Virus record (IMG/VR): IMGVR_UViG_3300035438_001058
Coordinates: 1-64,000 of that record
DNA: 64,000 nucleotides
Reading direction: 5' to 3' (one strand)
DNA from: a virus
Each line of letters opens with the position of its first letter. Position 1 is the first letter of the stretch. Both the position numbers and the translations under genes were made by a program. The notes under the pieces were generated by a model. That model did no database searches and was not told the origin of the DNA. It saw only the letters and a program-made list of their open reading frames with translations. Shown here one piece after another: positions 17,497 through 51,545 of the stretch.

Positions 17497-18485
17497 TATA
17501 TTAAGTTTATTTGTTCTAGTGTTGCGTTCTTAAAATCTTCTACCATTGGGATTATAACTGTTTTACCGAAACGCTCTTTTATAAGATGCCAGTAAACCAT
17601 ATCCCTTTTGGGATCATTTGGTGCTTTTATTGGTAATCCTCTAGGAAATTTATCCCCTTGAGGAGGTCCGTAATACTCCTTTATTCCATTTACATTTGCG
17701 GGTCTATGACTTATCATGACATAGTCAGAACAGTGGTAAATAGACGAAGCTGCAAAAATGTCGTTTCGTGTGGGATAATGGAGTAACGGATTTGATGTTC
17801 TTTCAGGACGTTCTATGTCCCGATTTAATTGTGATAAAACTAAGAATATGCACCTCAATCCTGTGGATGCAAAGTATTTTTTTAATTCGAGAAACACTGT
17901 CATCAACTCGTCAATGATAGATTTCTCTGTTTCCCCGCTTTTCCCCCTAACTAGGGTAGCGTGATCTATGGATATTACTAAGCCCTTGTTTAAACTTAAG
18001 AGATCTCTTTCCATAGCAAACTGTAATATGGTAGCCCGTATTTGCTCAGGTGTTCCAGGATTGTCTACGTAAAATACTGGAGAGTTTTTTCTATCCTCTA
18101 ATATATTCATTACTTCTGAGTAGTCATCATCACTTAATGGTGTATCAGAAGAATAAATATCCTTGAGAGATTTTTTTATTTTAGAGGATACGTACCTAGT
18201 AAGCTGGTCTTCTATAAGCATCTCAAAATCAAAAGACAGAATTTCAAAAGAATCGTCGTTGAGATCTAGAAAATCCCGCTTTATTTGCTCAAGTATAGTT
18301 GATTTACCACCGCCAGATAATGCCGCAATAGTAAAAATTCTATTTCAGTCTATACCATTTAGCAAAGCCTTGTTGAGCTTAGAAAATGAGGTTTTAAGAG
18401 ACTTAATTTCTCCGGTCCTTAGCTTGGTTATATACTCAGCAGTTACGTCCGCACCATGTGATATATGCCTTACATTTAAACTCAT
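17496..18485 (-). CDS. DnaB-like replicative helicase, one TGA(Trp)
   Basis: 329 residues from ATG 18485, reading TGA at 18345-18347 as Trp (NGID-W-NRIF). Walker A is ALSGGGKST (~residues 57-65); a Walker B-like strand GLVISIDHATL and the arginine-rich QLNRDIERPER follow in the order seen in DnaB. It lacks the N-terminal DnaB domain, so it is a core-only helicase. The upstream gene looks like a loader. A standard-code reading removes the Walker A motif. Confidence 0.85.
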
Positions 18486-19042
18486 TACATTAATTCATCT
18501 GATGTGAATGTTGTGGGTTGCGGCTCAACATCTAAGTCGGCATACACTTTATCTACTAACCACCTAACTGGACTTTTCATAAACTTCAAGGCGTTATTGA
18601 CACCAAAGTTCTCAAACTTTCTACTATTTACTTCAGACTGTAAGGCTTTTAACACCATCTCAGAAGATGTGGTTTTAGTAGCTTGCAGCCATTCTTTATA
18701 AGTTTCTTCTTTATTTACTCGGATCACCCTTGTTTTAGGATAATGAGAGTGTTTGTCAGACGCTGGGAAACTACGCCAAAACTTTTCAAACTCTTCTGTG
18801 TAGGGAGGTGGTGTACCTCCATCAGTAGTCAAATGAAAAATCAATATTTTCCCAGCGTCTGAAATTTTCTTGGTAGTCGTCTCTAGTAAGTTTCGGGACA
18901 CTAGAGTCTCTACGACTTCTGATTTTAGATATTCTCCTAGAGATGTCAACTCCTCTCGGCTCGCAAGGAGCAGGTACAGCAGCTCTTCTAAGCTCAACAT
19001 CTCTTGCCTGCACCGCTGATATGTATTTAATGTTAATTTCAT
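18485..19042 (-). CDS. Replisome organiser / helicase-loader-like protein
   Basis: 185 residues. The middle has EEFEKFWRSFPASDK...KEETYKEWLQA, the FxxFWxxFP plus YxxW arrangement common in phage replication-initiation and DnaC-like proteins, and an N-terminal helical region consistent with a winged helix. It sits immediately upstream of the DnaB-like helicase and shares its TAA with the helicase ATG. The function is inferred from pattern and context. Confidence 0.55.
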   Translation of the reverse strand: MKLTLNTYQRCRQEMLSLEELLYLLLASREELTSLGEYLKSEVVETLVSRNLLETTTKKISDAGKILIFHLTTDGGTPPPYTEEFEKFWRSFPASDKHSHYPKTRVIRVNKEETYKEWLQATKTTSSEMVLKALQSEVNSRKFENFGVNNALKFMKSPVRWLVDKVYADLDVEPQPTTFTSDELM

Positions 19043-19334
19043 AAATTATATTTTGGAGCACTATTTTTATGCTTAATTGATTTTCCTTGGCGGACTGCGT
19101 TGATTGTTTTAAAAGCTCGGCCGTTGTGTGCATTATCTCCATAACATCTAGTACGCACCACTCAATGCTTCTATAATAGCACGAAGTTAATACACAACTG
19201 TGGGTGTCTTCAGAAAAGTGCAAGACAAACTTGTAGTGAGTAGTGTCTTTATAAGCTGTTTCATAGATATAATATTTATAAATATCTACGTAATTCCCCT
19301 TAAACAGTTGATGCTGCGAATTTAATTTTTTCAC
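18771..19334 (-). CDS. Small-protein paralogue 4 of a tandem family; C-terminus uncertain
   Basis: The N-terminal ~80 residues (YKYYIYETAYKDTTHYKFVLHF...SIEWCVLDVMEIM) follow the same pattern as the three genes upstream. The frame stays open far into the next gene: to 18822 if TGA stops, to TAG 18771 if TGA is Trp. That tail is Arg-rich and looks like the shadow of the loader gene, so either the overlap of more than 200 bases is real or an indel or frameshift ends the protein earlier. Function unknown. Confidence 0.45.
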
Positions 19335-19536
19335 TTTTATCTGTGATTATGAACATAACAGCATCTTCAACATCTGTCCACGGACCTTCCTCGCTGTCTC
19401 TAGCAGTACCTACATAACAGATTACATAGTTAAGATTATTAACCTTGACAATGTCGTAACTAAAGAACGCTTTTTTTGTAGGCAACGCGTCAGACCAAAG
19501 TATGTCTTTTTCAAGATATTTGATTTTATGTTCCAC
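19300..19536 (-). CDS. Small-protein paralogue 3 of a tandem family
   Basis: 78 residues. The pattern SYDIVKVNNLNYVICYV...GPWTDVEDAVMFII matches its neighbours: two beta strands, a Gly/Pro turn and an amphipathic helix of the form (I/V)E-D-A-V. It overlaps the genes on both sides by 11-35 bases. Function unknown. Confidence 0.6.
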   Translation of the reverse strand: MEHKIKYLEKDILWSDALPTKKAFFSYDIVKVNNLNYVICYVGTARDSEEGPWTDVEDAVMFIITDKSEKIKFAASTV

Positions 19537-19768
19537 TTTTTTCGTTAATTATTTGATAAGCTTTTTCTACAGCGTCTTCAAGAGTAGCAAATGGACCTTT
19601 ACTTGTCTTTACTACATACTTTCCAGCAACTGTGTCTTTGCTATAGGAAATTGTCAGCGTGTAAGTTAGCATTTTTCTTCTGCTTTTATAGACATTTAAA
19701 GTGTGCAAAACTTGACCAGACATTATCTCTATTGTTTGAACGTGCTTCTTACTTTTTGGAGTTGGCAT
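19526..19768 (-). CDS. Small-protein paralogue 2 of a tandem family
   Basis: 80 residues with VYKSRRKMLTYTLTISY...KGPFATLEDAVEKAYQII, the clearest version of the shared strand-strand-turn-helix pattern. The basic N-terminus (PKSKKH) might bind nucleic acid, but nothing confirms it. The start ATG lies inside the upstream gene. Confidence 0.6.
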   Translation of the reverse strand: MPTPKSKKHVQTIEIMSGQVLHTLNVYKSRRKMLTYTLTISYSKDTVAGKYVVKTSKGPFATLEDAVEKAYQIINEKSGT

Positions 19769-19991
19769 CTAGTATTTTGTCTATACGTGTGAAGCACTCT
19801 TCAACCACACTCTCGATATCTGGATAATATGGACTTTTAAGGACTTCTTCTGTACGCATGACCTGCTTTTCAGAGTGCACAACCCCTATTTTATAATAGA
19901 AAAAAATTTCTTTTCCTATTAAAGATTTGTACACGTGAATTACTGCGTCTAAGTCCTCTTTAATTTCAAATACATACTTCCAAATTTCCAT
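19749..19991 (-). CDS. Small-protein paralogue 1 of a tandem family
   Basis: 80 residues; VYKSLIGKEIFFYYKIGVV...SPYYPDIESVVEECFTRI follows the same pattern as the next three genes. It begins one base before the zinc-finger protein stop. The four adjacent copies look like an old local duplication. Function unknown. Confidence 0.6.
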   Translation of the reverse strand: MEIWKYVFEIKEDLDAVIHVYKSLIGKEIFFYYKIGVVHSEKQVMRTEEVLKSPYYPDIESVVEECFTRIDKILDANSKK

Positions 19992-21139
19992 TACATTTTC
20001 ATTGTTAGCTGTTCTGCATCTGCGTCCATTAACTCTTCGACAATAGTCTCAAATTTTTCGTAATTTAATGGTCCCCAAACAGCTAGAACCCGTCCACTTT
20101 TTTTTCTTTTTTTAATGTGAAAAAGGTTAGGATCTCTAACTCCTTGGGTAAAGTTGTAAATGATATCCCCCACTACTATGGCTGCAAATGCTGGTATATT
20201 AGCACACTCGCAGTAAGCACATACTATTTGACCTTCTTTATTAATGTGCCTTGAAATAGTACTTGATGGTAGAATCATCAAATCTACCGCAAATTCCTCC
20301 AAACATAAATCACAGACATCATCTCTGTACCTACTTACCTTGCCCTGCATAGTTTTATCAGCGGTAAACAATCTGTTGTGCTCAGTAGTATGTAAGAATT
20401 TGTAAGCACATGGACCACATTGATACTCAATGTTTTGTTTTCCGTGAAAATCTGTTCTCATTTTAAACTCATCATTTATCATATAATAAGGCTCTCCACA
20501 AGTAGGGCATACGGCTGTTTGAAAAGTATTGGTGTAGAAATTAGATATACTTTTTTCTGGTAACCTCCCACTTATTTCTTTTATACACGAAGCACAAGTT
20601 AAAATAGTACCTCCATCCACAGTGTAAGGATCGTTTCCACACGGTACCCACATGAAATTAGAAGTTGTTTCTTCTACAACCCCTTGACAGAAGTAACAAT
20701 GCTTAACAGTATATAAAGATATATCTAATTCGTATTCGTACTTTGATTCTAAGTGCGTGAGACTATAATAGCAGTCTGCGGCAAACCTTCCGTCAAATAG
20801 TAGGGAATCAATTTTAGAATTTTTAGCGACGTCTTTGTTGGATAAGGCCTTGTAAAATATGTCCTCTGAATGTCTAGAGTTCAGATTTTTCATAGCTGTA
20901 ATTGCAGAGGAACAATTACTGCAGGTGTGCACACCTTCCAATACATCTATAAATTCGCGTTTTTCGACTTCTGATATTATGGTAAACTCTTCGTTGTCAT
21001 GCAGGGAATCACATAGCACACAAAGCGCGTGGTTATCCCCATAAGGGGCTCTGTACTTTTCAAACCCAACAGGTAAGTAAGCACCTCTAGATCTAATATA
21101 CCGATCTAACTTTGTATTTGATTTATGGTTTCGACTCAT
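19991..21139 (-). CDS. Zinc-finger-rich protein, 382 aa
   Basis: At least eight CxxC pairs are visible (CVLC, CSNC, CYFC, CASC, CPTC, CGPC, CDLC, CAYC), spaced like successive zinc ribbons or treble clefs. The C-terminal basic stretch HIKKRKKSGR may contact nucleic acid or ribosomes. The start shares bases with the SF2 helicase stop. I cannot name a family. Confidence 0.65.
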   Translation of the reverse strand: MSRNHKSNTKLDRYIRSRGAYLPVGFEKYRAPYGDNHALCVLCDSLHDNEEFTIISEVEKREFIDVLEGVHTCSNCSSAITAMKNLNSRHSEDIFYKALSNKDVAKNSKIDSLLFDGRFAADCYYSLTHLESKYEYELDISLYTVKHCYFCQGVVEETTSNFMWVPCGNDPYTVDGGTILTCASCIKEISGRLPEKSISNFYTNTFQTAVCPTCGEPYYMINDEFKMRTDFHGKQNIEYQCGPCAYKFLHTTEHNRLFTADKTMQGKVSRYRDDVCDLCLEEFAVDLMILPSSTISRHINKEGQIVCAYCECANIPAFAAIVVGDIIYNFTQGVRDPNLFHIKKRKKSGRVLAVWGPLNYEKFETIVEELMDADAEQLTMKM

Positions 21140-22308
21140 TTTGTAACACTTTTTAATCCAGCCCCAACTGTTTTAGCGTCTACCCAATTCTTTTCGACAG
21201 AGTTCTTGGTGTAAAGATTAATAAATATGGGTTTCATTTTCCCCTCTTTAAATCTTAGAATTCTGCCAGTTTGTTGCGTATTAGTAAGTTTAGTAGATAC
21301 TCCTGATAAGCATATTGCTCCGTCGACATCTGGCAAGTTAACACCTTCGTTTAAAGCGTCAACTGCTATAAGCAAGTTGAAATCACCGTTCTTAAACGCC
21401 TGTAAAACAATTTCTCTACTCTTTAACTTCATCTTAGAGTGGTAAACTCTACCCCCTACTACAGATCTTAAAGCTTCAGCAAATTTAATACTTTTAGTAA
21501 ACAGCAACCACTTTCTATTTGGCTCAAACTTTTCTATTATAGCTTTGGCGACACTAATCTTGGTAAGATTATTGTAAACCACTAATTTTCTTAGTTGCAT
21601 GGCTCCCCAGTATTGTTTGCAGAGCGTCTTTAGTTCCCTATCGTCAGAATACTGTTCAGCCTTAGCCAGATCAAACACGTTACGATATCTAGAAGATAAA
21701 TTAGGATCTTCACTTCGCAACCTGTCCAGCTTTATTAGCGACGTATTAAACACGTTGTCAAATGCCTTGTATTTACCTGCCATTGATTTGTCCATCCCCA
21801 CTTCTAAGTTGTAGATATTGAATTTAGGTAATATACCTTTATCGACAACATCTAATAAACTCTTGGCGTAAACAACTGGCGCTACTATACCTAAAAACTC
21901 TACGTACTCTTCTTCGTCTGGTATTGTTGCTGTTAAGCACAACATAGACGTAGCTTTAATACTTTGAAATACTTTTCTGTATTCAGGAGAAAGAGCTCTA
22001 TGAACTTCATCTATGATCACGAAATCGTATTCAGCGACATATCTGTAAGCAGATTGAATGCAAAGATAATCAACATTATTGTTATCTCCTAATTCTGCGG
22101 CAAATAATTCCCTAAATTGGTGTATAATGGGGATTCTTGAGGTAATGACTAGTGTCTTAGGAGGGACTCTAAAAGACTTAAAAGCCATTACCGCAAGTCT
22201 GGATTTTCCTACCCCGGTAGGTAGTACAACCGTTCCCCATTTACCAGCCTTATCTCAGGCTGTCAACGCTTCATTTTGAAGTGCTGTTACATTTTCTCTT
22301 AGTTTCAT
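21136..22308 (-). CDS. SF2 DEAD/DEAH-type helicase, one TGA(Trp)
   Basis: 390 residues from ATG 22308. TGA at 22255-22257 is Trp (EALTA-W-DKAGK-W), directly before Walker A LPTGVGKS. Then come DEVHR (motif II), LTATIP (motif III) and a helicase C domain with NEGVNLPDVDGAI and QQTGRILR (motif VI). This is the compact RecG/Rad25-like SF2 helicase often found with crAss-like replication genes. A standard-code reading loses the N-terminus with the ATP-binding loop. Confidence 0.88.
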
Positions 22309-22309
22309 C

Positions 22310-23098
22310 TTAGGTGCATGAGGCACAGTGGCCTCTTTCGTTAAAATATTCGTTTGTGCTGTCCAAGGCTTTTAAGCAGCTGGTACATTTGCCTTCACTT
22401 AAGTTGGCCATACAATTAGAGCAAAATGTGGCGTACTTAGTACTAGGAGTAAATTTTGCGTTACATCCTAAGCACGTGGACAATCCCTTAGCTTCTTTAG
22501 TGCAAGATTTGCATAGGGTTCTACCTACTGTGGTAGCTTTTCTGCATTTTGGGCAGATTTTAATGTCTTTACTATCTCTGGTGGCAGAAGTGTGGATCTG
22601 AATTTCTTTATAGCAATCTTTACATTGCCCCCTAGAGTTTAAGTGCGAAACATTTTTACAACTAGAACATTGTTCTGTCTTGTTGGTTTTTGGCATAAAG
22701 TTTCCGCCATAAAAACACTCTGGGCACGCACTAGTGTGCGAGGCATAAACATCACATTCATTCTTACACTTCGAGCATATAAGGGTTGCCTCGCTAGCGC
22801 AAGCCCCACATAGGGTTTCTCGCACAAGGCGGGAATTGCTGGGTATTAACTCGTTATCTTTTTCAAAACAACGTTGACACGCTCCTGCTATATTAACCCA
22901 TTTCTGCTCACCACACTCGTGGCAAACATCTTGGTGAGTTTCGACCCATTCTGCGTGCGTAGGGGCAGTTAGAACGCTAGAAGCAGGGTAACCTTTACAC
23001 TTTCTACAAGTGTTCTTACAATTACTGCATACAGCGTTCTCTAAATAGTGAAAGCAAGATGGGTCTAAGCACTGCCTGCTTTCACTCTCTAGTTTTTT
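22310..23098 (-). CDS. Zinc-ribbon array, probably translated by -1 frameshift from the membrane protein gene
   Basis: The frame is open from the slippery site at 23092-23098 to TAA 22310, about 260 codons, with about fifteen CxxC pairs spread evenly (for example CSNC, CRKC, CHEC, CQRC, CGAC, CSKC, CPEC, CPKC, CLGC, CASC). The CxxC pattern starts right after the slippery site, yet the frame has no ATG for its first 130 codons; the first start-like codon is a GTG at 22825 after five CxxC pairs. It most likely forms the C-terminal half of a frameshift fusion of about 630 residues. Zinc ribbons of this kind bind nucleic acids or proteins. Confidence 0.7.
   Translation of the reverse strand, partial: KKLESESRQCLDPSCFHYLENAVCSNCKNTCRKCKGYPASSVLTAPTHAEWVETHQDVCHECGEQKWVNIAGACQRCFEKDNELIPSNSRLVRETLCGACASEATLICSKCKNECDVYASHTSACPECFYGGNFMPKTNKTEQCSSCKNVSHLNSRGQCKDCYKEIQIHTSATRDSKDIKICPKCRKATTVGRTLCKSCTKEAKGLSTCLGCNAKFTPSTKYATFCSNCMANLSEGKCTSCLKALDSTNEYFNERGHCASCT
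23047..23098 (-). promoter_or_regulatory. Programmed -1 ribosomal frameshift signal
   Basis: On the minus strand the last codons of the membrane protein are TCA AAA AAC TAG, giving the canonical slippery heptamer A AAA AAC in frame, directly before the stop. Five bases later starts a stem AGTGAAAGCAGG that pairs with CTTGCTTTCACT (ten Watson-Crick pairs, then a G-U and a G-C) around a 16-base loop. Heptamer, spacer and stem match the textbook layout for -1 frameshifting, and the -1 frame is the zinc-ribbon frame. Confidence 0.8.
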
Positions 23099-24207
23099 GA
23101 TTTAGAGGGTAATGTGATGGCATCTTTGGTCCACCCTTGAAGAGTCTCCCTAATTTGCACCTGTAGCTGGGGTTTAGTGATCCCCTTGTGTGTAGCAGGT
23201 TTACCAGACTCTAAGGTCTTGATACCCATGTTAATCTCCACTATGCCAGCAAAAGCTTTTGTCTTTGCTGCATCATCCATTTTGATGTAGTAAGGAAGAA
23301 TTTTATCCATCCAGACTTGTGGTTTGTCTATCCCTAGAAATTCTAAGGCAGTTGTTATCTGGTCTGTGGCCTTCTTGTTCACCTTTTTCGGATCATTGTC
23401 CTTTTTCTCATCGTCTTTCTTGTCCTCGTCCTTCTTATCTTCTTTCTTATCTTCTTTTTTCTCTTCTTTCTTCTCAGCTGGAACGTCAAACATATCTGTG
23501 TTCAATGCGTGCTGAATTCCCTCTTTTGTTAAGGACAATTTAAGGGCAAGAACGACCTCATAAATTGTCAGAAGCAAGTGAAATGTTGTTATAATGACGC
23601 TACTCATCATAGCGCTATGAAGATTAGCAAAAGGAGAGAAAGTAGGTGGATACCTATTCTCTGCTATTACAGCCGTCAAGAAGGAAGGATGTAAAAATCC
23701 CATCTTCACCTTCATCATTACCCAGAAGCATTCTAATTGACCTGTGTTATGCACAGCGTTGGCCATAGCTAACATATTTACTATTGGAGCGCCGACAGCA
23801 AAGATGAAGGATATTAGAATAATTACTAGGATAGTAGAGCCTAAACCCATTCGCACCCCTATTGGTCTTGGTATAACAAATACGGAAACAAACTCGCCAA
23901 TAGCTTTTGCTAAGCCAAAAGCACCGACAGTACTGATAGCCGCTGCAATTAGGTGAACTGACATTCGCACCGTTACATTTGTCTTTTCGTCTTGCACTGA
24001 ACCTAGTAGTGCTGCTTCTGCTATCAACGCAGATAGTTGTAAACCTATTAGATAGGTAAAGTTGTACTTGATAATTGCTCTAGCTAAAAGAGCTGCAGGT
24101 TCTAATCCCTTTAATTTGGGATCTTTTTGTGCTTGTTTGTACAGGTAATAGGTCAAAAGACCTACGCAAACGAAGAAGGCGACAAATACTATCGTGCTCT
24201 CTATCAT
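23089..24207 (-). CDS. Polytopic membrane protein with charged linker (frameshift donor)
   Basis: 372 residues. Five or six hydrophobic segments lie in residues 1-230 (for example STIVFVAFFVCVGLLTYYLY and STILVIILISFIFAVGAPIV). A Lys/Glu/Asp-rich linker (KKEEKKEDKKEDKK) at ~245-280 leads to a soluble C-terminal domain of ~90 residues. The 0-frame product ends in TAG; ribosomes that slip would add the zinc-ribbon array. It shares its start with the polymerase stop. An inner-membrane platform is likely; the actual role is unknown. Confidence 0.7.
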   Translation of the reverse strand: MIESTIVFVAFFVCVGLLTYYLYKQAQKDPKLKGLEPAALLARAIIKYNFTYLIGLQLSALIAEAALLGSVQDEKTNVTVRMSVHLIAAAISTVGAFGLAKAIGEFVSVFVIPRPIGVRMGLGSTILVIILISFIFAVGAPIVNMLAMANAVHNTGQLECFWVMMKVKMGFLHPSFLTAVIAENRYPPTFSPFANLHSAMMSSVIITTFHLLLTIYEVVLALKLSLTKEGIQHALNTDMFDVPAEKKEEKKEDKKEDKKDEDKKDDEKKDNDPKKVNKKATDQITTALEFLGIDKPQVWMDKILPYYIKMDDAAKTKAFAGIVEINMGIKTLESGKPATHKGITKPQLQVQIRETLQGWTKDAITLPSKSKN

Positions 24208-26099
24208 TATTTATTCCATATTTTAGTTATTACTGCTTTAGCTGGGATATCTAAATGAGTAGTGTATTCTCTAGAAGCATCTAGGCAACACTTCTCTAAT
24301 ATCTTTGCGACAGTGTGTGAGAATTCGTCGGGGCATTCGAGTATTATTTCATCATGCACGAACAGTACGATTTTAAAAGGTATTTTTTTAGCAAATTTTC
24401 TAAGGAGAACTCCAGCCCTCTTACCTATATCGGCAGCGGTTCCTTGTACTGGAATATTCTGTGCCCATCTCTGTATTTTTGAATCCCAGTAACTATAGGC
24501 GTCTCTAATAGCTGGGTGTGGATCAGTGTATGTTAATCTGCACTTCTCCATGTACTTCTTGCACTCTAAATAATCATCAAAGAATGGAACAAATGACTTT
24601 CTACCGCTAACGGGGTTACAAACTACATATCCAAAATTCTTAGCCTCTAATCCTTGGTTGGAAAAGTATGCCTCAAGTTTTGGGAAGCTATCGTAATAAC
24701 CTCTAATAAGAGATTTTGCTCTTGTTATAGGAATATCAAATTGTTCCGAAAGTTTTTTAGCTCCTCCGCCGTAAGCTATCAAGAACCCTATGGACTTGGC
24801 TATACGACGTTCTTCGCTGTCTTTGGTCAAGTTCGGATCATTAAATGCGATCTTAGCAATCTCTAGGTGAAAGTCCGTACCGCTACCGCAAGCTTTGATC
24901 ATGTTTGGGTCTCCAGACTTATCCGCTATTATCCTTGCTTCTTGGTTTGAAAAGTCAGCCACTACAAACGAGTGGCCTTCTTCTGCCATGAAAGCAGATC
25001 TATAGACGTCACCTCTTGAAATATTCTGTAAATTAGGATTAGTGGAAGATATCCTACCTGTACGCATTACCTGCATGAAGGAAGAATGTACCCTTCCAGA
25101 ATAAGGGTTGATGTGCCTTAAAAATTTGTCCCCATAAGAGACTGCCTTTTTCTTGAGCATCTTGTAATCCAAATAAGTCTTGAGTATGCTAAACTTAGCT
25201 TCCTGTTTGAGAAGCACTAGTCTCCCTACACTCTCCTTTATTTCCCCAGTCTTTTTGTCTAGAGTAAGAACATCTACCCCTATTCCTTTCAGGGCGGTTA
25301 CAGCTTGTTTAGGGCTGTCCCAATTTATATCAAATTGGGCAAGTAATTGATCATGCAAACTCTTGGCTTGCTTAGCGACTTCTTGGGCATTACTAAGCCA
25401 CCTATTCCCTTCCAGGAATATTCCGTTTAGCTCCATATCTCCCAAAACCTTAATAAACTCAAACTCGAGTTTTAAGGTACGCTTTAAGTCCAACTCTCTC
25501 GCCTTCTCGACTAATTTCTTTTTTAGTAGAGCCGTGGCTTCCACGTCCATCGCTCCATAATATATTTGTTCTAAGGTAAACGGTGCATCCCCTATAGTGG
25601 AAAAAGAAGTCCGTACCTTTTTAGTAACTGTAGGCGCGAATAGATTGCCTTGGCCGCTGTAATAGGCTCTTACATACCTAGCAACGCATTGCTCGAGTGT
25701 GAAGTGGCCTTTAGGCGCATCTTTACCGCATTCAATAATCTGAGCGGCAATCATAGTATCCCAAAGATTCTCTAATCTTATCCCATAATTACTGGCTATA
25801 ACTTGGTAGTCATACTTGAGATTATGTCCGAGTATGGGCCTATTCGAATCTTGTATGCTTCTAAGTAGGCCTTTAGGGCAATGTTCTCTAGTGTCGATAA
25901 CAACTTGTGTGCCGCCATTCCCAAGTTGGAGCATGATAACCTGACGATCAAACAAATTAGTAAAATCACCAGTAGTCTCCGTATCGAGGCAAATTTCATC
26001 TCAGTCTTTTATTAGGTCCTGAATCTGGTTAAAAGTTATTTGGGAAATATCCCCCTGTTGTATGAGCCATACCCCTGTCGTAGATTGCTGTGTAACCAC
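24207..26099 (-). CDS. PolA-family DNA polymerase with 3'-5' exonuclease
   Basis: About 630 residues. The exonuclease motif LDTETTG lies just downstream of a TGA read as Trp at 26001-26003 (IKD-W-DEICLDTETTG), and GHNLKYDYQ gives Exo II. Polymerase motifs follow in order: VADFSNQEARI (motif A), RRIAKSIGFLIAYGGG (motif B) and LFVHDEIILECP (motif C). The start is uncertain: no ATG precedes the exonuclease, so GTG 26099 is proposed, which overlaps the upstream gene by 71 bases. This is the replicative polymerase of the phage. Confidence 0.9.
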
Positions 26100-26280
26100 T
26101 CTTATTTCGTTTAAAGCCCACCACTTGTAAAGTTTCCTTAATGGTAGGGGTTTTAGTTTGTTTTTCCGGTTGTAGCGGCTCTTGCGTTAAGCTTTTCGTC
26201 CGCTTTAATAGCTCGTTTGCTATGATGTTCCCGAACTGTGTTACAAGTGCGGTCATCATAACGGTAAAGAAAGTTCCCAT
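26029..26280 (-). CDS. Small possibly membrane-associated protein, 83 aa
   Basis: The N-terminus MGTFFTVMMTALVTQFGNIIANELL is mildly hydrophobic and could be a membrane-associated helix; the rest is basic and polar. It overlaps the start of the polymerase gene. No family is recognised. If the polymerase starts further downstream, the overlap disappears. Confidence 0.45.
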   Translation of the reverse strand: MGTFFTVMMTALVTQFGNIIANELLKRTKSLTQEPLQPEKQTKTPTIKETLQVVGFKRNKSGYTAIYDRGMAHTTGGYFPNNF

Positions 26281-26317
26281 AATTTTAATAAAGTGGGAGG
26301 GGTTAGGGCCCCCTCCC
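26281..26317 (-). terminator. Hairpin terminator after the M15 lysin
   Basis: GGGAGGGG and CCCCTCCC form a perfect 8-bp stem. On the minus strand it is followed by ACTTTATTAAAATT, a broken T run. It lies between the lysin gene and the small gene before the polymerase. Confidence 0.6.
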
Positions 26318-26329
26318 TTTCTTTACCAC

Positions 26330-26950
26330 TTATATATTTAAGTGAATATGGTCTCCAGAAGCATTGCTATTAAAGAATACATATTTTTCGGTATTCGAGT
26401 CGCCGAGATATTTCCGAACTCGCGCAGATCCTGGTCTACCTTCTATGTACATTCTAATGTTATGTTCCCGAAGTCATTCAACTCCTTCTTTGGAAACTAA
26501 AAATGAGATTACATCTTCGTTCCATTCCAAATCCACGGCTCTACCGTGAAAATGTTGCGACTTTTTGTTGTAGCCTCTCTTTAAAGAGTTGACACGCGCA
26601 GTTGGCCCTTTGTAGGATGACAACGCATAAATTAACTCCTTGCTGACACTTGTGTCTACTGGTGTGTACAGCATGAAGCCAAAGAAGTTTCCAGTGACAC
26701 ACTCCCCCGTTCTTTTAGATTTCCACCTTTTACCTAAGTATGGGTGTGTTTCTTCTAAACGTTTTAACTTCGCATTAGTTGTGTCTTGTTGAGAAAAAAG
26801 TTTCTCAACTTTCTCCATCAAGCACTTATTCTCACTTTTTAATTCTGTATTGATAGCAAATTGTTTTTGCCAGCCAAATACAGTAATAGTTAAAAGTAAA
26901 AACATTGCTAATGCCATTAAAGGCCTGTACCACTTTTCAGTGTTATTCAT
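26330..26950 (-). CDS. Peptidase M15-like endolysin, membrane-anchored, one TGA(Trp)
   Basis: 206 residues when TGA 26474-26476 is Trp (KEGVE-W-LREHN). A signal-anchor segment lies at residues ~9-28. The peptidase core has SQHFHGRAVDLEW (residues 131-143) and ends GDHIHLNI, the HxxxxxxD and HxH zinc ligands of VanY/L-Ala-D-Glu-type M15 peptidases. It would cut peptidoglycan stem peptides. A standard-code reading loses the last zinc-binding histidines. It is the leftmost member of the lysis-like genes and the last gene before the TGA-as-stop block. Confidence 0.8.
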
Positions 26951-27019
26951 AATATTCTATTAAGTGTTCATTGCCCTCTTATAAAGTGGTTGAGGGTAAT
27001 CCAGCCATCCACAAGGCTG

Positions 27020-27616
27020 TTAAATACTGTCCAGCAGAGCTCTGGGACTCTTAGGCACCATTACTGGCACCGCGTCTTCCCCGTCCCCGCCTTTAAGTAG
27101 GGTAGTAGCCATATTATATATGTCCCCTAATGTTGGTGACACTAAACCCGCTACTCTTTTCTGTCGGTTATGAAAGAACCTTTCATTTACCTCACTATCC
27201 GTTGTTGTATGTCCAAAACACATTTCACCATCTTTACGATAGACGGACCCGCCTAATACTTCAGCGAAGGTAAGGAATGCCGACATACCAATGCCTAGAA
27301 TTCCGTTCTTGCCCTTGCCTTCATCTTGTTTCTTCATATACCAACTCAAAGTCTCTACCCTAAAATACTCCAGCGCCTGATCTTGGGGTGGAATGTTTGG
27401 AGGGAGTTTAGATTCTCTCTTGAAATAAGAGATATTGGCGTTGATACCTCCAGTATCAGGGATCAATAGCACCGATTTAGGGTGATAGTGTTTCTGATCT
27501 GGTGAGATTGTGACTACTTGCCACTCCCTGTCCAGAAAGTAATTCCGGATTTCAAGTGTTCCACAATCTGCGTATGGCTGCATTATTAACAGCCGTTTCT
27601 CAATGTTGGCGTCCAT
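27020..27616 (-). CDS. Glutamine amidotransferase-like fold, probably inactive
   Basis: 198 residues. VLLIPDTGGINANISYF and GILGIGMSAFLTFAEVLGGSVY resemble the two signature stretches of class I amidotransferases (VxxGG...Y and the nucleophile elbow GICxGxQ...LGGxxY). The nucleophile Cys is absent from the elbow (GIGMSA), so hydrolase activity is unlikely. It may be a binding or scaffold version. The match is by eye and moderate. Confidence 0.45.
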   Translation of the reverse strand: MDANIEKRLLIMQPYADCGTLEIRNYFLDREWQVVTISPDQKHYHPKSVLLIPDTGGINANISYFKRESKLPPNIPPQDQALEYFRVETLSWYMKKQDEGKGKNGILGIGMSAFLTFAEVLGGSVYRKDGEMCFGHTTTDSEVNERFFHNRQKRVAGLVSPTLGDIYNMATTLLKGGDGEDAVPVMVPKSPRALLDSI

Positions 27617-27869
27617 AGTATAAATGTTTTAGGTATTCTAGTATAATACCTTTTACGTGTTTCTGCGTTATTTTTTTGGCTGTACGACTTGCGAAAAAGT
27701 TGCTCGCAACTAAGTACATGGTTTCAAAGTCGCCTACGGCCCCGTGAATAAATAAATCCTTGGGAATGCTGTTGTAAATGTCCCCAATGGTTTCAAATCC
27801 GAGGCTTCTAGCGAAGAAGCCGTTCTGCCCTTTTACGAGCATCCGACTTGTTTTTTCTGTTATGATCAT
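27600..27869 (-). CDS. Unknown protein, 89 aa, TGA as stop
   Basis: A small helical protein ending at TGA 27600-27602, just inside the next gene. Reading that TGA as Trp would add ~40 residues lying wholly over the next gene, so it is treated as a stop, as elsewhere in this block. The ATG overlaps the end of the upstream gene by 62 bases. No family is recognised. Confidence 0.5.
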   Translation of the reverse strand: MIITEKTSRMLVKGQNGFFARSLGFETIGDIYNSIPKDLFIHGAVGDFETMYLVASNFFASRTAKKITQKHVKGIILEYLKHLYYGRQH

Positions 27870-28248
27870 GCAGCTGGCCTAAAAGGCGTCTTGTGGTTAT
27901 TTGTAGCGCTCTTTTATAAGCGGTGTTTCTTTTCCTGGATTTTACCCGCACATTTAGTGTGGGGCCAGTTACAGTGACTGTATATCCAATACGTCGTGCT
28001 TCTGCAGGATATATTGGGTATATGTCTACCTGCTCACTAACTACGGTATCCAGCTGAAGTAAGTCTTTTTCCAACTGTGTTATTGTAAACGGTCTTCTGT
28101 TTACGTAGATCGTAGTCGTTTTGTCGAGTCTTTCCAGAAAACTCATCATACGATCGCTTATGCGCATTTTTTGACTGTATTTTACGGGCGAGCGATGGTG
28201 GGAATATTTCCCGTATTTGGTGTACTGTGTGGCCGTTAAAGCTTTCAT
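27808..28248 (-). CDS. Unknown basic protein, 146 aa
   Basis: A basic, probably alpha/beta protein with a convincing core (TTIYVNRRPFTITQLEKDLLQLD...YTVTVTGPTLNVRVKSRKR) and a very basic C-terminal tail. Its first ~70 codons overlap the upstream gene in another frame; starting at a later ATG (MRISDRMM) would reduce this. It ends in TAG. Function unknown. Confidence 0.55.
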   Translation of the reverse strand: MKALTATQYTKYGKYSHHRSPVKYSQKMRISDRMMSFLERLDKTTTIYVNRRPFTITQLEKDLLQLDTVVSEQVDIYPIYPAEARRIGYTVTVTGPTLNVRVKSRKRNTAYKRALQITTRRLLGQLHDHNRKNKSDARKRAERLLR

Positions 28249-28522
28249 CTCTTTCCATAAAATCTTCGAACATTACCTCAGGAGTTCTGGCAATGCCTAC
28301 TCCGTACAGGATTCCGATCTCAATTTCTGCCCTTCCTACACAATAACGTTCGTGCAGCGTGTGCATTTGTTCCTGTTTTTGAGAAATTCTTTTCAGTCTT
28401 TCTTCTCTTTTGGAACGCATTCGAGGTTCGCGGATTGTTGGTGCAGGTATGTAAAAATCTTCATCCTTGTGTTTGAAGAAGTTTACTACTCTTACATAGT
28501 CGCATTTAGCTTTAATCCTCAT
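28037..28522 (-). CDS. Unknown basic protein, 161 aa
   Basis: Highly basic N-terminal half with a helical stretch (REPRMRSKREERLKRISQKQEQM), then a more hydrophobic part (EIEIGILYGVGIARTPEVMFEDFM). The last ~70 residues are encoded over the start of the next gene. No family is recognised; nucleic-acid binding is possible from charge alone. Confidence 0.5.
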   Translation of the reverse strand: MRIKAKCDYVRVVNFFKHKDEDFYIPAPTIREPRMRSKREERLKRISQKQEQMHTLHERYCVGRAEIEIGILYGVGIARTPEVMFEDFMERDESFNGHTVHQIREIFPPSLARKIQSKNAHKRSYDEFSGKTRQNDYDLRKQKTVYNNTVGKRLTSAGYRS

Positions 28523-28949
28523 CTATAACCAGTTTTTTTCCTGTTACCAGGGGTTGCCGAATTTTACTTGCCTTTACTCCAAACTTACGAGCAAGGCCTA
28601 ATGCAGTGTCACCTTTTTTTATTACGTATTCCACAGGTATGGGCGTAGTTTTCTGCATACGTTTTTGCGTAGTTACAGAATAGCTCACAATTGCCCCAGA
28701 TTCCATTTTTATGTCCACGTGCACATCACTGGGCCCGGGAGCATTTTCGATCGCGCTCAAGTCAATTACGAGCCTTGTAGGCCCATCCTCGTCGCTTATT
28801 TGAACTGTTGGAGTAGTATCTAGCGCCATTCCTAAGGAATCGGTAGAAACTACGGGGGTTGGCCCGCTATAAACCTCGTCAGAACCGTCACACGATGCTA
28901 AAAGATTTATGATAATTAATAGGCCTAGAATTATATAATATTGCCTCAA
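28512..28949 (-). CDS. LysM-domain lipoprotein
   Basis: 145 residues. The N-terminus MRQYYIILGLLIIINLLASC is a lipoprotein signal with lipobox LASC, so the mature protein would start at the Cys and be lipid-anchored. The C-terminal 45 residues (EYVIKKGDTALGLARKFGVKASKI) are a LysM domain that binds peptidoglycan glycan. The linker is Asp/Ser/Thr-rich. It would hold the cell wall or an adjacent lytic enzyme near the envelope. It ends in TAA. Confidence 0.8.
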   Translation of the reverse strand: MRQYYIILGLLIIINLLASCDGSDEVYSGPTPVVSTDSLGMALDTTPTVQISDEDGPTRLVIDLSAIENAPGPSDVHVDIKMESGAIVSYSVTTQKRMQKTTPIPVEYVIKKGDTALGLARKFGVKASKIRQPLVTGKKLVIDED

Positions 28950-29451
28950 AATACTGGGTTTTACTTATTTCCACAGGTTTTCTGTGAGCGGGCATAGTTT
29001 TTGCCCACAAAGATACTACTTTCGCGTGATTCTTTCGCCAAATGGGCGAAGTATTTTTTAAAAGCTCGCGCTCTTTGGGATGAAATATAGCGAAAGCATC
29101 TGTATCCATGTAGTCTACGTAGTTGATTGTTTCTAAATACTGTTTTAGTTTCGTTGGTACTAACTTCAGAACTTCAGTATTTGGTACTGAAGTTCTATCA
29201 AATGCTGCGTGCGGGACGGTTAACTCAGGTACACCTTTATTTATAAGCTGGGCGATTGACTGAATTGTCTTTTCTTCTAGCCCAAGTATGTAATACGGTC
29301 TGATTAATGGTGAGGTGCTAACTAGTTTTAGCACTAAATGCCTTTTCTTATGCAACTCAAAACCATAATCCAACAATGCTGCCTTAGCACTAAAATGCTT
29401 AATAAATACATTTCCTGTACTACTATCATGCTCTATCGTTATTTTTGTCAT
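28888..29451 (-). CDS. Unknown protein, ~187 aa, TGA as stop
   Basis: The start at MTKITIEHDSSTG (ATG 29451) is preferred, since it lies 25 bases inside the end of the upstream gene; an earlier in-frame ATG exists at 29553. The sequence is basic with many aromatic residues (NYVDYMDTDAFAIFHPKEREL). It ends at TGA 28888; reading through would add only seven residues. The end overlaps the lipoprotein signal sequence. No family is recognised. Confidence 0.5.
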   Translation of the reverse strand: MTKITIEHDSSTGNVFIKHFSAKAALLDYGFELHKKRHLVLKLVSTSPLIRPYYILGLEEKTIQSIAQLINKGVPELTVPHAAFDRTSVPNTEVLKLVPTKLKQYLETINYVDYMDTDAFAIFHPKERELLKNTSPIWRKNHAKVVSLWAKTMPAHRKPVEISKTQYFEAILYNSRPINYHKSFSIV

Positions 29452-48477: not shown

Positions 48478-48757
48478 GGGGGTGCCAGGTATTGATTGCA
48501 CTCATAGGTTTGGTATTACTAGCAAGCAGTCTAAAGACTATAAATTTAAATAATCGACAATAATACTAATGACTTTGGTATCGGACTTCCGTCCTTTTCC
48601 ACAGAAGCAGTTGCTCCTTCTGTTACTCAAGAGCAGCCAGTTTACCAGTACGCATAAGTTTACCACACTAATAGACTATAATATAGGTGTACAGAAGCTT
48701 GTAATTCTAGAATATTAAACGAGTCGTAAGACAGCGGTTCGAATCCGCTCACCTCCA
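48478..48757 (+). ncRNA. ssrA: tmRNA (ssrA) with 33-residue tag
   Basis: The tRNA-like ends are GGGGGTG (48478-48484) paired with CACCTCC (48750-48756) and discriminator A; the T arm is AGCGG-TTCGAAT-CCGCT. A long interrupted helix joins the halves: 5' ACTC, GTTT, GGTATT, CTAG, CAAGC pair in order with 3' GAGT, AAAC, AATATT, CTAG, GCTTG. There is no normal D stem. The tag frame runs from GAC 48556 to TAA 48657, beginning DNNTND and ending PVYQYA, preceded by AATAATC as in the AATAGTC before the Escherichia coli resume codon. tmRNA rescues stalled ribosomes with SmpB and tags the protein for degradation. Confidence 0.85.
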
Positions 48758-48772
48758 CTAAAATTAATTATT

Positions 48773-49042: not shown

Positions 49043-49099
49043 ATCGCTAACAGTCGTTAGGTCTCGCCCTCCATGTCGTAAGATGTGAGGGGGCAATTC

Positions 49100-49171
49100 G
49101 GGGATATGGGGTAATCGGTAACCGGGAAGTCTTCAAAACTTTAGTTGTCTGTTCGAGTCAGACTGTCCTCG
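49100..49171 (+). tRNA. tRNA-Trp(UCA), opal (UGA) decoding
   Basis: Acceptor GGGGATA/TGTCCTC with two G-U pairs; D loop AATCGGTA with A14 and GG; anticodon arm GAAGT-CTTCAAA-ACTTT with anticodon TCA at 49133-49135; T arm GTCTG-TTCGAGT-CAGAC; discriminator G, as in bacterial tRNA-Trp. The tRNA has no encoded CCA. It would read UGA, and UGG by wobble, as Trp, which matches the use of TGA in the flanking genes. Confidence 0.9.
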
Positions 49172-49188
49172 CCCACAAAATTTTTATT

Positions 49189-49698: not shown

Positions 49699-49944
49699 AT
49701 GACTATAAAGGTTAATATTTCTTTCGAACTTTGGCCATATCAACAGTCTTACTCAGTAGAAATACCAGAAGATAAGTTTAAGGAAATGGATAAGTATGTG
49801 GATTCTATAACATCTAATTTAAAGATGTCATTATTATCCCATGTACGTGTCCATCACCCTAATTTATGGTATAAATATTCTCCTTTAGAAGATCAAATAC
49901 TGGCAACTTTAAAAATAGAAAATCACACACACAAAATTAAATAA
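49699..49944 (+). CDS. Unknown protein, 81 aa
   Basis: Beta strand then helix (MTIKVNISFELWPYQQSYSVEIPEDKFKEMDKY). The stop overlaps the GroEL start by one base (TAATG), so they are co-translated. No family is recognised. Confidence 0.55.
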   Translation: MTIKVNISFELWPYQQSYSVEIPEDKFKEMDKYVDSITSNLKMSLLSHVRVHHPNLWYKYSPLEDQILATLKIENHTHKIK

Positions 49945-51545
49945 TGACAAAGAATATTCATTTAGAAAAAGAAACACGAGATAAAATGCTGGAAGGTGTT
50001 TTAACTTTGGCACACGCAGTAGGATCTACACTAGGACCAATGGGGTCAAACGTAGTAATTGAGACTCCTTACGGAGCTACCACAGTTACTAAGGATGGAG
50101 TCACTGTAGCTAAACATATTGATTTAGATGATGCTGTGCAAAATTTAGGAGCGCAGATATTAAAACAAGCTGCTTCAAGAACAGCTACTCTTGCTGGCGA
50201 TGGTACAACAACTGCTACTGTAATAGCTGCGTCTTTAGTACAGTCTGCGCATAAATTAATTACTGCGGGTGTGAAGCCTATTGATATTAAAAGAAGGTTA
50301 GAAATTCTCTTATTAGAAGCTCTGAATAAGATTCGGATTCAAGCTAAGAGTGTTGACCTTAATAGGATTAAAGAGATCGCCACTATCTCAGCAAATAATG
50401 ATGAGGAAATGGGGGCTTTAATTCAAGACGCTTACAACCATGTTGGCCCCAATGGAATGATCACTTTAGAGGAATCTAAGACAGGTCTAACTCATTTGGT
50501 TATGGAAGAAGGAGTTTCTATTGACAAAGGATTTGTATCTCCTTATTTTATCACTGATTCTGCAAAAGGAGAATGTATTCTAGAGAATCCATTTATCTTT
50601 ATTACTGATTCTAAAGTTAGATATACTCAAGATATAGTACCTATATTGGAAATTGCTGCTTCTAAATCAAGGCCCCTTCTTATTATAGGAGACGAAGTAG
50701 ATGCTCAAGCTCTTCAGTTGCTCGTACTAAATAAGATGCGCGGGACAATACAAGTATGTGCTATAAATGCCCCTTCTTTTGGGGATAACAGAACAGCGAT
50801 ATTAGAAGATATTGCTGCCCTAACATCTACTACTATTATAACCGCTAAAGCTGGCACTAGGTTAGAGGATACTCCAGAAAGAGCATTAGGAAATGCTCAA
50901 AAAGTTATCATATCAAAGTCGAAGACTATATTAGTAGGACCTAAGAATAACTTAGAGGCTATTGAGTCTAGAGCTGAAGAAATTCGTAACTCTATGGAAT
51001 TGGAGCAAGATCTTTATTTAAAGAATAGACTTCAAAAAAGATTGGCTGATCTTACTGCTAAAGTAGCTGTGCTTCATGTTGGGGGAGCTACTGAAACTGA
51101 ATTAAAAGAACGCAAAGATCGTGTAGATGATGCTCTAAGGGCTACTGCTTGTGCCATACAAAAAGGTTACCTTATTGGCGGCGGTGTAGCTCTAGCTCGT
51201 GTGTCTTCTTTCATAGAGATAAAAGATGCTTTAATAGATCCTATTTTTATAAACGCACTAACATCCCCTCTAAAATTAATAGCTTCAAATGCAGGGCAAA
51301 CAGGAGAAGTAGTTTTAGCTAAAGTTTTATCTTCAGAAGATCTTGATATTGGTTTTAACGCTCGCACGCTCAAGTATTCTAATTTATTAGAGGATGGTGT
51401 AATAGATCCCGCGTTAGTAGTTGAGCAAGCACTCTCAAACGCAGTATCAGCGGCTTCTATGATATTACTTTCTGCTACGGCAATCACAAATAAAGATAGA
51501 AAACCTCCTTTTAATCCAGGTAATATGGAAGATTATGCTGCATAA
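49944..51545 (+). CDS. groEL: Chaperonin GroEL (phage-encoded)
   Basis: 533 residues, close to normal length. Visible motifs: STLGPMGSNVVI near the N-terminus, the ATP motif AGDGTTTATV (~residues 80-89), and VDDALRATACAIQKGYLIGGGVALAR with the catalytic Asp and GGG. The C-terminus (NPGNMEDYAA) lacks the GGM repeats of bacterial GroEL. It folds phage proteins, with the GroES-like protein as probable partner. It ends in TAA, eleven bases inside the terminase. Confidence 0.93.
   Translation: MTKNIHLEKETRDKMLEGVLTLAHAVGSTLGPMGSNVVIETPYGATTVTKDGVTVAKHIDLDDAVQNLGAQILKQAASRTATLAGDGTTTATVIAASLVQSAHKLITAGVKPIDIKRRLEILLLEALNKIRIQAKSVDLNRIKEIATISANNDEEMGALIQDAYNHVGPNGMITLEESKTGLTHLVMEEGVSIDKGFVSPYFITDSAKGECILENPFIFITDSKVRYTQDIVPILEIAASKSRPLLIIGDEVDAQALQLLVLNKMRGTIQVCAINAPSFGDNRTAILEDIAALTSTTIITAKAGTRLEDTPERALGNAQKVIISKSKTILVGPKNNLEAIESRAEEIRNSMELEQDLYLKNRLQKRLADLTAKVAVLHVGGATETELKERKDRVDDALRATACAIQKGYLIGGGVALARVSSFIEIKDALIDPIFINALTSPLKLIASNAGQTGEVVLAKVLSSEDLDIGFNARTLKYSNLLEDGVIDPALVVEQALSNAVSAASMILLSATAITNKDRKPPFNPGNMEDYAA

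Follow-up and report, generated by a model that had tools for sequence, protein, structure and literature searches.

Programmed frameshifting in phages is best known from virion proteins, and among bacterial genes for membrane proteins, copA of Escherichia coli (copper pump and copper chaperone) gives two products by -1 frameshifting, the frameshift truncating the protein early. Phage frameshifting has been described in tail assembly chaperones and in capsid and tail proteins, including Ig-like extensions (PMC5009743), and A_AAA_AAC is among the consensus heptamers listed in the GeneTack survey (PMC3711429). Frameshifts have also been described in RNA polymerase genes of the Zeta group of crAss-like phages (PMC7886860) and proposed in the reverse transcriptase of Quimbyvirus (PMC8008677). 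Within the accessible portions of these sources, neither "zinc" nor "membrane protein" was found in PMC5009743, "zinc" was absent from the GeneTack survey (PMC3711429), and membrane, zinc and crAss were unmentioned in the PRFect paper (PMC10885494). Literature searches on frameshifting in crAss-like phages (Crassvirales), in Bacteroidetes, in phages generally and in phage membrane or zinc-ribbon proteins, which covered few subscription papers, gave no earlier report of this target; its absence from the literature is not thereby proven. The mechanism of -1 frameshifting is known; its membrane/zinc-ribbon target appears to be new.

The stretch of DNA analysed here (the window) comprises 64,000 nucleotides, positions 1 to 64,000 of the 85,208-base virus record IMGVR_UViG_3300035438_001058. 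Its portal protein is ~30% identical over the full length to those of named crAss-like phages and matches phrog_6547 (portal), and its head protein matches phrog_11589 (major head protein). Because of these matches, together with those of the DNA polymerase and the SF2 helicase, the genome is, judged by gene content, that of a divergent crAss-like phage, with both the portal and the capsid protein by which Crassvirales are recognized. The phage also encodes a GroEL-like chaperonin (49944-51545; phrog_5725, E 2.4e-138) and a tmRNA (48478-48760; Rfam RF00023, 54.6 bits) whose predicted tag is unusually long. The gene pair under study lies on the minus strand, with a family A DNA polymerase gene as its upstream neighbour (24207..26186, minus strand, a stop-to-stop frame with TGA taken as Trp) and an SF2 helicase gene as its downstream neighbour (21136..22308, minus strand, with an in-frame TGA at 22257 taken as Trp). 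After the helicase follows a second CxxC-containing protein of 382 aa (19991-21139), which is ~24% conserved in the related loci L005-L008.

In-frame TGA codons are found in the genes for the helicase (22257), the polymerase (26003), an M15-like protein (26476) and the terminase (52285, 52339, 52627 and 53464). When eight such columns from three genes were aligned with relatives, three stood opposite TGG Trp codons in at least one relative, two opposite Ala or Tyr only, and three fell in gap columns. A tRNA with anticodon UCA (49099-49175), called SeC by ARAGORN yet only 77 nt long, is likely an opal suppressor. Reassignment of TAG to Gln and of TGA to Trp, mostly in late genes, is described for crAss-like phages in PMC7886860. 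In the window genome, TGA is probably read as Trp, replication genes included.

The first gene of the pair (23092..24207, minus strand, ATG at 24207) encodes a predicted membrane protein of 372 aa and ends with the codons TCA AAA AAC TAG. A preliminary description of this DNA had reported a slippery heptamer in the correct frame right before the stop, and this was borne out: A AAA AAC occupies 23092..23098 (minus strand) in the phase X XXY YYZ (tcA AAA AAC TAG, 23098-23092), and the 0-frame stop TAG (23089..23091, minus strand) is directly 3' of it. The -1 frame, which encodes the zinc-ribbon array (22310..23101, minus strand, TAA at 22312-22310), comprises 263 residues from stop to stop, of which 260 lie past the heptamer, and contains 15 CxxC matches, in agreement with the 260 open codons and the CxxC motifs reported before; the predicted fusion of ~630 residues computes to 372 + 260 = 632. 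It had further been stated that this frame lacks an ATG for 130 codons, which is correct (~135 codons) but needs a refinement, since the first ATG, GTG or TTG is a GTG at 22825, 91 codons downstream and after four CxxC pairs. Only 10 nt part the upstream -1 stop, a TAA just 5' of the heptamer, from the 0-frame TAG, and hence the frame could be changed solely at the heptamer. The layout of heptamer, stop and -1 frame is thus confirmed. Decoding of the TAG as a sense codon was considered and rejected, as relatives have TAA or TGA TAG at this place and no open frame 0 continues past it. The overlap of the two ORFs also leaves no room for an intron, which contradicts a reading as exons joined by a group I intron; although Rfam detects group I introns in the relatives L174 and L175, locus L001, which spans the junction, has no Rfam hit, and we assign this reading a negligible probability.

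The comparison with relatives that the preliminary description had proposed was carried out, and the slippery site, its phase, the stop and the zinc-ribbon frame at -1 proved to be kept in four lineages. Loci L005-L008 were reached through their polymerases, which are 54-55% identical to that of the window; L005-L007 are almost identical among themselves over 13.7 kb. All four loci have the same gene order as the window (polymerase, membrane protein, zinc ribbon, helicase), with identities to the window of 39% (L006) and 35% (L008) for the membrane protein and 34% and 33%, respectively, for the zinc ribbon. Their membrane ORFs end with the codons CCA AAA AAC TAA, and the zinc ribbon is at -1 in each of the four. 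A membrane protein profile run against the six-frame ORFs of 173 loci added two members, L040 (E 1.5e-20) and L075 (E 9.1e-18), both of which carry G GGA AAC at the end of the membrane ORF, directly before a stop (TAA; TGA TAG), with the zinc ribbon at -1 and the helicase next. Weak matches to L052, L138, L141 and L011 (E 0.01-0.063) were dropped as chance, L052 after inspection; with a five-sequence profile, only L052 (0.0067) and L011 (0.12) remain among matches under 150 bits. A helicase profile search of genome contigs gave no relative. In the helicase gene of L008, an insertion of ~860 bp relative to L006 (L008:10572-11424) was seen, in which Rfam found no intron at gathering score.

We therefore compared four lineages, namely the window and L005-L008 (both with A AAA AAC) and L040 and L075 (both with G GGA AAC). 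A heptamer of the form X XXY YYZ stands in the correct phase of the membrane frame in all four, and the downstream frame is at -1 throughout. The overlap between the frames, 0-frame stop included, is just 13-28 nt, which fixes the site of the shift, and the slippery class has been kept though its letters changed, as L040 and L075 carry G GGA AAC. How often such a site would be expected was examined in 1,162 non-redundant ORFs of at least 150 aa from all loci collected: X XXY YYZ directly precedes the stop in seven of them, comprising all four family junctions and 3 of the 1,158 others, where the four junctions do not represent four independent draws because the lineages are related. A wider list, of ORFs with a heptamer near the stop, includes several others whose -1 frame offers an ATG within a few codons, which is typical of ordinary overlapping genes. 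In each of the four lineages the membrane part is accompanied by the zinc-ribbon part, and none of the loci examined has one without the other. The retention of the site in four divergent lineages suggests a deliberate two-product gene. This gene is not general in crAss-like phages, because it is absent from six of ten records searched with the membrane protein profile, some of which are fragments; in L113 and Flavobacterium phage FpV4 the helicase follows the polymerase, with no membrane/zinc-ribbon cassette between them.

Comparison of L006 with L008 over 717 nt of the zinc-ribbon frame reveals 10 changes, eight of which are synonymous third-position changes and two of which are conservative (Leu to Val and Ile to Val). 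If positions were random, such a third-position bias would have P ~0.003 (worked by hand), and this substitution pattern shows purifying selection on the -1 frame. The result bears on the possibility that the two ORFs are truly one frame, split by a sequencing or assembly error, or that the zinc-ribbon part is a dead, decayed gene. Homopolymers are error-prone on some platforms, and TGA breaks standard-code gene calls elsewhere in this genome. However, a second contig, IMGVR_UViG_3300035682_002304, which is possibly from the same sample as the window, spans 18092-29207, differs there at one base only (23971) and has the same sequence at the junction; the contigs of three relatives agree over 13.7 kb; and the heptamer is altered in two lineages, whose shift site, not being a homopolymer, argues against a homopolymer error. 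A miscount of the A run as five or seven residues, which had been raised as a way for the frameshift to be refuted, is thus contradicted by the second contig and the relatives, and together with selection on the downstream frame this makes error or decay extremely unlikely. Transcriptional slippage on the A6 run, by which some of the mRNAs would gain one more A and encode the same fusion, fits the window and L006/L008, where the run is present and the product would be the same. Six A residues are a short run for such slippage, and L040 and L075 have GGGAAAC at the same place, with no long run, so transcriptional slippage is disfavoured; the constant phase X XXY YYZ relative to the 0 frame also speaks against it, and we consider it very improbable.

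Another explanation for the conserved junction is that the zinc-ribbon gene is translated alone, by re-initiation or translational coupling at the stop of the membrane gene, from an ATG in L040 and from rare or non-canonical codons elsewhere. It is favoured by L040, in which TAATAATG lies just past the heptamer and an ATG four codons past the heptamer is preceded by the purine-rich AAGGGAAAC, which could serve as a ribosome-binding stretch. L040 may therefore re-initiate instead of, or besides, frameshifting. Bacteroidota genes often start without Shine-Dalgarno pairing (PMC8710568), and a GTG is present in the zinc-ribbon frame 18 codons past the heptamer in L006/L008 and 91 codons past it in the window. 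In contrast, the interval from the -1 stop to the first Cys contains no ATG, GTG, TTG, CTG, ATT, ATC or ATA in L006/L008 and only one ATC in the window, located 5' of the heptamer; L075 has CTG and ATA, yet 44 codons without ATG, GTG or TTG. Hence the window, L006/L008 and L075, unlike L040, offer no ATG, GTG or TTG start up to the first CxxC pair at least, so that three of the four lineages appear to lack a usable start codon, and an ATG for the zinc-ribbon gene in relatives, the other finding named beforehand as speaking against frameshifting, was met with in L040 only. Furthermore, a slippery heptamer in every lineage would be needless under translational coupling. We thus regard independent translation as improbable, though the least so of the alternatives considered, and -1 ribosomal frameshifting at the end of the membrane gene as very likely the way in which the fusion is made; at the level of recoding, the comparative data support this interpretation.

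A candidate stimulatory stem-loop (about 23047..23086, minus strand) with a 12-bp core follows the heptamer after a 5-nt spacer, UAGAG, and folds at -17.9 kcal/mol. Folding of the 60 nt and 90 nt after the heptamer was compared with 200 dinucleotide shuffles. In the 60-nt windows, z was -2.47 for the stretch studied here (6/200 shuffles fold as well) and -3.18 for L075 (1/200), as against +0.22 for L006 (115/200), +0.71 for L008 (152/200) and +1.35 for L040 (184/200). With 90 nt, significance was lost for the stretch studied here (z -0.99, 30/200), and the values were -2.64 for L075, +0.36 for L006 and +0.86 for L040. The hairpin is therefore lineage-specific, present in the window and L075, with L006, L008 and L040 folding no better than shuffled sequences: the spacer and stem given in the preliminary description hold for the window but are not kept across relatives as a general rule.

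The membrane protein has five predicted TM helices, a Lys/Glu-rich linker and a helical C-terminal domain. By a simple hydropathy calculation of our own, L008 has six TM segments and the other four aligned proteins have five each. Where there are five, the 1-2 and 3-4 loops are positively charged, from which an N-out, C-in topology is predicted, and for this reason the zinc ribbons would be cytoplasmic. The residue kept invariant at the very end of the five aligned proteins is the last Asn, which the AAC of the heptamer encodes. In the structure model (mean pLDDT 65.3), a linker and then a helical domain come after the TM part; Foldseek searches of this model against BFVD and PDB gave no match at E <= 0.001. 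The zinc-ribbon model was too poor for use (pLDDT 29.8). DZR, DZR_2 and Zn_ribbon_15 matched the array with E values of 0.001-0.05, all under the curated Pfam cut-offs; its CxxC pairs are conserved in the alignment of relatives and presumably bind zinc. For the pair as a whole, searches of Pfam, PHROGs, NCBIfam and PADLOC gave no match over cut-off or weak matches only, and PDB sequence searches gave chance-level matches only. Neither the membrane protein (queries from the window, L040 and L075) nor the zinc ribbon (window and L040) had a relative among named phages in whole-protein and DNA searches.

Based on these results, we propose that most ribosomes would end at the TAG and yield a membrane protein of five helices whose C-terminus is cytoplasmic, whereas a minority would slip back by one base on the heptamer (A AAA AAC or, in other lineages, G GGA AAC), perhaps with help from the stop codon next to it and from the hairpin that some lineages have. 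The slipped ribosomes would continue in the -1 frame and make the 632-aa form, which would carry a cytoplasmic zinc-ribbon array. Against this proposal stands that A AAA AAC is a weaker slippery site than A AAA AAG in E. coli; both the occurrence and the rate of frameshifting are inferred. Since the cassette sits between the DNA polymerase and the SF2 helicase genes, a tethering role may be suggested, derived solely from gene order and topology: tentatively, a small share of the anchors, tipped with zinc ribbons, might tether phage DNA, RNA or replication proteins to the membrane, in a ratio set by the frameshift. That this environmental crAss-like lineage uses the ratio of plain to zinc-ribbon anchors to organise its machinery for replication or transcription at the membrane of the host is a possible but doubtful extension.

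Many proteins of crAss-like phages have no known role, and a conserved frameshift that affects a membrane protein encoded in the replication cluster would point to a ratio-controlled membrane complex in these phages. The locus also shows why such genes go unnoticed: the fusion is split by standard gene calls, and its neighbours are interrupted where TGA is read as Trp. The natural variants, which carry either A AAA AAC or G GGA AAC and have or lack a hairpin, offer a ready set for studying -1 slippage on Bacteroidota ribosomes.

Several described systems resemble parts of this locus. In cr126_1 and cr128_1 (Crassvirales), genes for SPFH/band 7 membrane proteins are likewise found close upstream of a related helicase, but these proteins have another fold (Band_7 for cr128_1) and the next small gene is not Cys-rich. 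The frameshift of E. coli copA also concerns a membrane protein; the one proposed here would instead add a C-terminal zinc-ribbon tail. Ig-like extensions, found on capsid and tail proteins of phages, are alike in that a fraction of the protein carries an optional C-terminal domain (PMC5009743), whereas those are virion proteins with Ig domains and the present case is a membrane protein with zinc ribbons. Another likeness is to the tail assembly chaperones (lambda G/GT), which also belong to dsDNA tailed phages and gain a minority C-terminal extension by slippage near the 3' end of the ORF (PMC5009743); the gene in the window differs in that it encodes a non-tail membrane protein, lies in a replication cluster and has its stop codon abutting the heptamer. 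If the proposed role is true, the ribosome would fix the composition of a stoichiometric scaffold, the membrane's equivalent of the ratio seen in tail chaperones.
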